From: an uncultured Methanobrevibacter sp.
GTDB taxonomy: Archaea; Methanobacteriota; Methanobacteria; Methanobacteriales; Methanobacteriaceae
Length of the DNA: 32,497 bases
Reading direction: 5' to 3'
NCBI GenBank assembly: GCA_902764015.1
Contig: CACWUH010000022.1
Span: forward strand, 1 to 32,497
Position 1 is the first letter of the stretch. Each line of letters opens with the position of its first letter. The notes beneath the pieces are model-generated. The model worked only from the letters and a program-made list of their open reading frames with translations. It was not told the DNA's origin and did not search any database. Position numbers and translations under genes: made by a program. This document shows positions 3,582 to 6,085 of this stretch, one piece after another.

Positions 3582-3746
3582 TTACTCCTTATTCATTACC
3601 TCTTTTTTTAATATACGCCTATATTTACCATATTTATCCTCAACAGAAAATTTTGGAGGATAAATTACTTTAAGCGAACCTCCACAATTAGGGCAAGCAT
3701 CTTTTAAGGTATAAATTCCGCATTCCGGACATTTATTCATTTTCAT
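3582..3746 (-). CDS. nop10: Nop10, H/ACA RNP protein
   Basis: A 54-residue protein that is easily missed because of its size. The N-terminal half is a zinc ribbon, CPEC then CPNC spaced 12 residues apart. The C-terminal half has the Nop10 signature [17 protein letters not shown]. In archaea Nop10 bridges Cbf5 and L7Ae in H/ACA particles that pseudouridylate rRNA. The start is ambiguous: in-frame ATGs lie at 3752, 3746 and 3740. 3746 (giving MKMNKCPEC) is chosen because homologues usually have a few residues before the first Cys. There is no clear ribosome-binding site, so translational coupling to aIF2alpha, whose stop is at 3759, is likely. The stop overlaps the PAC2 ribosome-binding site. 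Confidence 0.9.
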
Positions 3747-3758
3747 ATTCATGTAAAT

Positions 3759-4556
3759 CTAATTGTCTAACTCTCTTAAGAATGAACCGTTACCACCGGA
3801 TTCTTCAACAACTGCAATGCATCTTTCAGCGGCAGCCTTGAGAGTTTTTTCTGCCAAAATGTAATCAGTGGATTTTACTGTAATCCTGTATCTTGGTGCG
3901 CCTACGCACTGGACCTTGATTTCCTCTTCCTCATCGCCGTTGTCTTCAGCGGCCTTAAGGGCAGAAATGATTACCTCTACACCATCAGGCACAAAAGTTT
4001 CGATATCAACATATCCATTGATGTGAACTTCAGGAGGAGTGATATTCTTCTTGGCCACTTCGGTAATTGCATCAGCCCAATCCTGAGGGATTCCCTCTTC
4101 AGTCAGGGATTCTGCACCTTCATCGGAAGCGGCTTCAAAAGCGCCATAGACATCGCCAAAAATGTCCATCAGCTCATAGCCCACTTCATCATAAGCTTCA
4201 TCCAGAGTCTTATCCAAAGACTTGGCAGACAATTCCAAGAATTTTTCAGCTTTTTGTTCAATTTTCCAATGTTGGATCTTTTTAGTTCTTTGGTCTTCGC
4301 GGATTCTCTTCAGGGAAGCATCAACATGCCCCTTTTTAGGGTTAACTCTTAAAACACGACAGACAATCTTTTGGTTTTCCCTTACGTGGTCTCTGATATT
4401 CTTAACCCAACCGGAAGATACTTCAGAAATATGAATAAAAGCTTCTTTGCCCTGATATTCTTCTAATTTAGCAAAAGCCCCATAATTAAGAACCTTATAA
4501 ACTGTACCTACAATAAGTTCTCCTTCATCAGGCCATTCTTGACTTTTTCTAACCAT
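3759..4556 (-). CDS. Translation initiation factor aIF2 subunit alpha
   Basis: 265 residues, full length for archaeal IF2 alpha. Residues about 10-85 form an S1/OB domain ([21 protein letters not shown] ... [10 protein letters not shown] ... DASLKRI). A helical middle domain follows (residues about 90-175). The C-terminal alpha/beta domain (about 176-265) binds the gamma subunit. The heterotrimer brings initiator tRNA to the small ribosomal subunit. ATG 4556 is preceded by GGTGA with 4 bases of spacing. It sits between S27e and Nop10 in the classic archaeal order. An acidic insert DNGDEEEEI lies in the C-terminal domain. Confidence 0.95.
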
Positions 4557-4619
4557 ATTCTCACCAACATCAATAAAAATTATAAAAAATAGTAAAAAAA
4601 TAAGTTTAAAACTAGAAAT

Positions 4620-4753
4620 CTAGTTTAAAACTTTTTCAATGTGTGCGGTGATTTTAGCTTTAGCACCGCGGCAGCACGGTCGAATATAACCTGTTCGTTG
4701 TCACAATCTAAACATTTGACTTTTAAAAAGTTTCCTCTACCTTTACTAACCAT
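4620..4753 (-). pseudogene. rps27e: Ribosomal protein S27e with frameshifting internal deletion
   Basis: From ATG 4753 the frame reads a perfect S27e N-terminus ([17 protein letters not shown] ... VIFDRAAA) and then leaves the family, ending at TAA 4627-4625 after 42 residues. In the next frame the DNA continues with the usual S27e C-terminus, [14 protein letters not shown], stopping at TAG 4622-4620. Between these, the expected second zinc knuckle (VxCxxCGxTLxEPxGG) is missing. Compared with a normal length of about 59-60 residues, about 46-49 bp are lost, not a multiple of three. The first C-x2-C (14, 17) remains. S27e is a small-subunit zinc-ribbon protein found across archaea. L44e's stop is 10 bases upstream and GGTGG supplies the ribosome-binding site. 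The break could be real or an assembly error at this hairpin-prone spot. Confidence 0.85.
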
Positions 4754-4763
4754 GTTAACCACC

Positions 4764-5042
4764 TTATTTAGCTACGAATTCAGGTTTACCTGTTCTGAAA
4801 GATTGTTTGATGTGGGATTTACCACATTCTTTGCATTTAAGTCTTAAGTCTAATTTCTTAACTGGCTTGTTTCCAGCAGGTAAAGGCCTTGGGTAACCCC
4901 TATAACCAGCAGTCACACGTCTGAATTGTCTTTGTCCCCATGTTAACTCACTAGCTTTTCTCCTTTTTGCAGTATGAACTTCATGAACTGTGTGTTTTCT
5001 GCAGTGAGGACAGTATGTTCTTTTTTCTTTTGGTATTTTCAT
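4764..5042 (-). CDS. rpl44e: Ribosomal protein L44e
   Basis: 92 residues, normal length. It begins [22 protein letters not shown] and ends with a second Cys pair, [13 protein letters not shown], so the two C-x2-C pairs form the zinc site. The body is Arg/Lys-rich ([20 protein letters not shown]). L44e binds near the ribosomal E site of the large subunit. ATG 5042 follows GGTGA with a short spacer. It is the first gene of the L44e-S27e-aIF2alpha-Nop10-PAC2 operon, behind a 218-bp leader/promoter region. Confidence 0.96.
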
Positions 5043-5260
5043 TATTTCACCGTAAATTAATAAATCACTGTAAATCCATCTATGAATTTATCTACTCAAT
5101 CTATTTAACAAAAAAACGTAGAGATAAGAACTGCATTGTAACGCATCAAGTCTACAGACAGCAAAAATCCAAATTATAAAAAATATAATTTTTTATTATC
5201 ACAAATAGATACGATTAGTATATCTATTTATCAAGCTATTTAAAGGTAATGGAAAAATTG
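5043..5260 (-). promoter_or_regulatory. Promoter and structured leader of the L44e operon
   Basis: This spacer between GINS and L44e holds several minus-strand signals. CCTTTAAATAG (about 5246-5236) is a good BRE/TATA box just after the GINS stop. A 9-bp inverted repeat (5203-5211 with 5221-5229) lies where transcription from it would start. A second TATA-like stretch is at about 5188-5173. Further on, GTAGA (5154-5150) and TCTAC (5123-5119) can close a hairpin around an inner TGC/GCA pair, followed by seven T (5117-5111 or nearby). This could be a leader attenuator, the end of a small RNA, or chance. No protein or tRNA is seen. Confidence 0.45.
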
Positions 5261-6085
5261 TTAAATTTTGACCTGACGGCCTTTTCGATTTTTGAAAAAT
5301 ATTTTTGCATTGACCAGCGGCAATGTCACTATATCCTGCGGCCTGAAAGGCCCATAGGTTTTCTCGTCAACGCCGACAATGGCCCCCACATCGTCAAAGA
5401 CGAGCATTGTAACGAGTTCCGCATCCTTAGCTGCCTTTTTTGATTCGAAATCATAGAATTCATCATTAGCATCAAAGGCATTTGGATTGTCTTCAATGCT
5501 TTCAGCCGGCTTTGGCTTGACTTGCGGTTTTGCAGGAGGCTTTTTAATCTCTTCGGATGGCTTAGGCTCCAGCTTTTCCTTAATGACCGGTTCCGGTTCG
5601 GCCTTTTCAACGTCGACATCAGGAGTCAAAGTGGTCTTTTGAGTCACTTTTGGTTTGATGATCGGCTTTTTAGGAGTTTCATCATCATCAGACAATTTTT
5701 CAAGGGAAATGTTGCTTCTATGATTCTTTAAAGTGTCGATTAAAGAATAATAGAACTTCTCCTCTTCAGGAGTCAAGTTCAGGGGAGTGGTATCCACCAA
5801 ATCGAACTGGGGCTTTCCCGTGAACAAATGGTAAGACCTGTGAATGTTTATGACTGCCGCTTCAGAAATCTTCTTTTCACGCCTTTCGCAGATTTCAGTT
5901 GCAATGATTTGGGACTGCTTTAGCAATGACACTGCCTTTGAAAAGGGATCGCTCATCGCTTCCTGCTTCAGCGCGTCCATATATCCCTGAAGTTTTGTGT
6001 AGAAATCCTCATCTACACGAGCCAATGTACCGTTATTCCGTTCTTTTTTCTGAATCTGACGCAGGTCCTGATAGAATTTATCCAC
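5261..6085 (-). CDS. GINS complex subunit Gins51
   Basis: 274 residues. The helical A domain comes first (residues about 1-125: FYQDLRQIQKKERN ... LFTGKP ... LTPEEEKFYYSLIDTL) and the small beta-rich B domain last (about 220-274: VTMLVFDDVGAIVGVDEKTYGPFRPQDIVTLP). This A-B order marks the Gins51 (Psf1/Sld5-like) type. Between them is a long Pro/Lys/Glu linker of about 85 residues. GINS joins MCM and GAN/RecJ-like protein in the archaeal replicative helicase. The start is GTG 6085, preceded by GATGG; the next in-frame Met is too far in. The gene follows PCNA by 57 bp and probably shares its transcript, though a T-rich run lies between them. Confidence 0.85.
   Translation of the reverse strand: MDKFYQDLRQIQKKERNNGTLARVDEDFYTKLQGYMDALKQEAMSDPFSKAVSLLKQSQIIATEICERREKKISEAAVINIHRSYHLFTGKPQFDLVDTTPLNLTPEEEKFYYSLIDTLKNHRSNISLEKLSDDDETPKKPIIKPKVTQKTTLTPDVDVEKAEPEPVIKEKLEPKPSEEIKKPPAKPQVKPKPAESIEDNPNAFDANDEFYDFESKKAAKDAELVTMLVFDDVGAIVGVDEKTYGPFRPQDIVTLPLVNAKIFFKNRKGRQVKI

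Follow-up and report, generated by a model that had tools for sequence, protein, structure and literature searches.

The window, a stretch of 32,497 nucleotides from an uncultured Methanobrevibacter sp., contains the cluster L44e–S27e–aIF2alpha–Nop10. Within it, the gene for ribosomal protein S27e (PF01667) matches Methanobrevibacter S27e at both of its ends and in its position between L44e and aIF2-alpha, but differs from the known family in an internal loss of 46 bp that removes the second C-x2-C and breaks the frame (Table 1). Starting from the ATG (4753–4751, minus strand), the S27e frame runs for 28 protein letters to 4671; from 4670 to 4623 the sequence reads as S27e in a different frame, for 15 protein letters, and closes with the normal stop TAG (4622–4620). 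The frame opened by the ATG reads on past the junction and then stops. In place of a single open frame of about 59 codons there is a break at 4670/4671, and of a zinc ribbon made from two C-x2-C pairs the first pair alone is left. Only the first half of the 55 positions of the Pfam Ribosomal_S27e profile is matched. The preliminary description of this DNA, which had the gene starting and ending as a perfect S27e in different frames with the second C-x2-C as the missing middle, is borne out; its figure of 46–49 bp for the loss is corrected by alignment with the intact gene of the relative RUG13973 (L038), which fixes the size at exactly 46 bp, the aligned part being 98% identical.

Table 1 Features of the S27e locus in the window, and gaps in other genes of the same draft genome
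Feature	Position	Strand	Remarks
S27e, 5′ part	4671–4753	−	First C-x2-C intact; ATG at 4753; Pfam PF01667 positions 2–28
S27e, junction	4670–4671	−	46 bp of relatives' sequence absent; blunt, no direct repeat at ends
S27e, 3′ part	4620–4670	−	Different frame; own stop TAG
Truncated 42-aa reading frame	4625–4753	−	One C-x2-C kept, the other absent
L44e	4764–5042	−	Intact
aIF2-alpha	3759–4556	−	Intact
Nop10	3582–3752	−	Intact
Region of top interspecies DNA identity in Methanobrevibacter	4400–5230		Relatives' contig ends cluster here
HdrA	L121:1215-1217, contig C1		83 bp gap
Ferredoxin-like subunit			74 bp gap
IlvB			62 bp gap
GTP cyclohydrolase IIa/Dus fusion	L182:17939-19387, contig C23		53 bp gap
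tRNA methyltransferase			52 bp gap
Cbf5	L188:16375-16408, contig C29		28 bp gap (DNA alignment), frame-breaking
MoxR-type ATPase			28 bp gap
TctA-family protein			22 bp gap
P-type ATPase			20 bp gap

The surrounding operon is intact, as first described: L44e, aIF2-alpha, Nop10, PCNA and the GINS gene are all open. The junction itself does not fit the recombination between two GCGGT-like copies that had been proposed to explain it. In intact S27e, 25 bp separate the two GCGGT copies, and the lost segment starts upstream of the first of them. Recombination between the copies would delete 25 bp and produce a different junction, so it cannot account for the one seen here, which is blunt, with a direct repeat of 0 bp at its ends. 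A fault at the hairpin GCGGTG...CACCGC had also been suggested. The hairpin is present together with an intact S27e in the relatives L035, L036, L038, L044, L046 and L048, and is rejected as the sole cause; an assembly fault is supported by what follows, but the hairpin is not the reason for it.

Nearly all other Methanobacteriaceae loci that contain S27e have it at full length, as do nearly all genomes of the genus with a match; the lesion in the window is therefore neither chance nor misreading. The exceptions among close relatives are instructive. The nearest relative, RUG593 (L032), is 87% identical over 6.3 kb of the locus and carries a different lesion in the same gene, a blunt 73-bp deletion (L032:3290-3393) with a stop at codon 14; the rest of its genome gives no S27e match. 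In the next relative, RUG13973, S27e is intact, and a 53-bp frame-breaking gap lies in PCNA (L038:1644-1645), the only PCNA of that genome, along with a 56-bp segment duplicated exactly and in tandem at the L44e start (L038:3001-3126). Another draft, G063, has six NN joints in 3 kb (L114:168-2672), several of them inside S27e, L44e, PCNA and GINS, and its PCNA and GINS frames break at NN. The genome at L049 has one contig that ends 39 bp past L44e, inside S27e, and another that ends at the S27e start. No conspecific genome with the same deletion was found, the nearest relative being the one at 87% identity over the locus. A search of plasmids gave no match.

Some genomes of the genus give no S27e match. 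Besides G074, G077, G078 and G083, these include six that were checked for L44e. Five of the six also lack L44e, and the sixth has the first part of L44e followed by a contig end. Because L44e is missing or cut by a contig end in each, absence of S27e from these six reflects a region that was not recovered, and we reject them as cases of real loss.

Lesions of the same type are found elsewhere in the window's own draft, at loci unrelated to S27e. To search for gaps, we set about 1.05 Mb of the draft, a sampled half, against G028, a complete relative represented by about 1.57 Mb; 595 genes matched. Besides S27e, this gave 9 gaps of 20–83 bp with an end repeat of 0–2 bp; none is a multiple of 3, in a search that favours out-of-frame events. 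The reciprocal control found no loss of at least 20 bp in G028; the two large joints that it did show there correspond to the draft's own losses in GTP cyclohydrolase and tRNA methyltransferase, viewed from the opposite side. The first of these losses, of 53 bp, creates a false reading frame of 482 aa in which GTP cyclohydrolase IIa is fused to a dihydrouridine-synthase-like gene. The loss in HdrA is out of frame, and the gene is also divided between contigs C1 and C31. For both HdrA and Cbf5, the broken copy is the only one found in the draft, which holds no intact HdrA. HdrA is a central methanogenesis enzyme and Cbf5 a core RNA-modifying enzyme, so a living cell without both is not credible. 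With PCNA in RUG13973, indispensable single-copy genes are thus affected in more than one draft.

Features of the locus could explain why assembly would break at S27e. The gene lies in the region of highest interspecies DNA identity in Methanobrevibacter, where its identity to the two nearest relatives is 98–100%, compared with about 76–97% over most of the locus, and exact runs of up to 99 bp in this region are common to another species. Among the relatives' nearby contig ends, 12 of 30 fall 500 bp or less from L44e where 6 are expected (p about 0.01, for a window picked post hoc). The identity peak and the clustering of contig ends fit an assembly-graph tangle at S27e. Several other lesions of the draft have flanks only 76–80% identical to G028 and no identity peak, so interspecies tangling is an incomplete account of the breaks; at lesions away from identity peaks, strain variation within the population may be the cause.

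Given similar clean, frame-breaking gaps in other indispensable genes, both in this draft and in those of its nearest relatives, the 46-bp gap in S27e is almost certainly a local assembly error, in what we take to be a short-read metagenome-assembled Methanobrevibacter genome. An assembler would have reached a tangle at S27e, where DNA is near-identical among co-occurring strains or species; the contig would have been broken there and its two arms joined without the intervening 46 bp. We infer that the organism most likely has an ordinary, intact S27e. Local assembly errors, at which no perfect read exists, have been described as a fault of short-read metagenome assemblers and are suspected to be prominent in IDBA-UD assemblies; scaffold joins can also insert Ns although the flanks overlap, and uncorrected errors carry incomplete or incorrect protein-coding genes into public databases (Chen et al. 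2020, PMC7111523). The lesions seen here resemble those errors in the bases lost or duplicated at unmarked joins, in the incomplete protein-coding genes that result and in the NN joints of a related draft. The diagnostic of Chen et al. (PMC7111523) is the lack of a perfectly matching read, whereas the present case is made from assembled sequences alone. For the RUG catalogues, single samples were assembled with idba_ud, and co-assembly was done with MEGAHIT (PMC5830445, PMC6785717); these may not be the assemblers of the window's draft.

Other explanations accept the lesion as biological. That the archaeon really has a broken S27e, tolerated or offset by a second copy, had been raised from the start, and the deposited sequence does show the loss; as the draft is 84% complete, a second copy could lie outside it. 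Yet none was found in its 156 contigs. The junction is blunt, the neighbouring species has a different lesion in the same gene, the only HdrA and the only Cbf5 of the draft carry the same lesion type, and S27e is intact in nearly all genomes of the genus that contain the region. A real mutation of S27e is therefore very unlikely. We attach the same very slight probability to a broader version, in which a rumen-type Methanobrevibacter lineage and, separately, a sister species really lost functional S27e and rely on a truncated one-pair zinc ribbon or on a copy that has moved to a part of the genome that was not recovered. The literature on S27e in archaea yielded nothing useful.

Slightly less probable again is a real variant of a minority strain, in a few cells or in dead DNA, that the assembler took as consensus. 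Metagenome bins are consensus sequences from mixed populations, which leaves room for such a variant, but on this proposal many rare deletions would have had to arise independently in essential genes and every one be chosen as consensus, and the ends lack microhomology. Programmed recoding, by frameshift or bypass, would draw on the fact that both halves of S27e are still codon-perfect. Relatives encode S27e in one frame, however, and a change of frame cannot bring back 46 missing bases with the second C-x2-C; since the sequence itself is missing, recoding is already contradicted, and we regard it as by far the least probable of these explanations, with a negligible chance of being correct.

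The lesion is thus real in the deposited sequence and almost certainly does not exist in the organism itself. If true, the loss would be strikingly exceptional in a ribosomal protein that is universal among archaea. As an assembly error, it has the value of a warning and no more: unmarked losses of 20–83 bp occur in core genes of this genus's draft metagenome genomes, and claims of gene loss or of pseudogenes drawn from such drafts therefore need checks at the level of reads.

Two further observations concern other parts of the window. At 220–393, only the first 58 residues of a relative's 165-aa protein find a match. The GINS (Gins51) gene, at 5261–6085 between PCNA and L44e, differs in length among species, and its alignments contain several gaps of 6–26 residues each.
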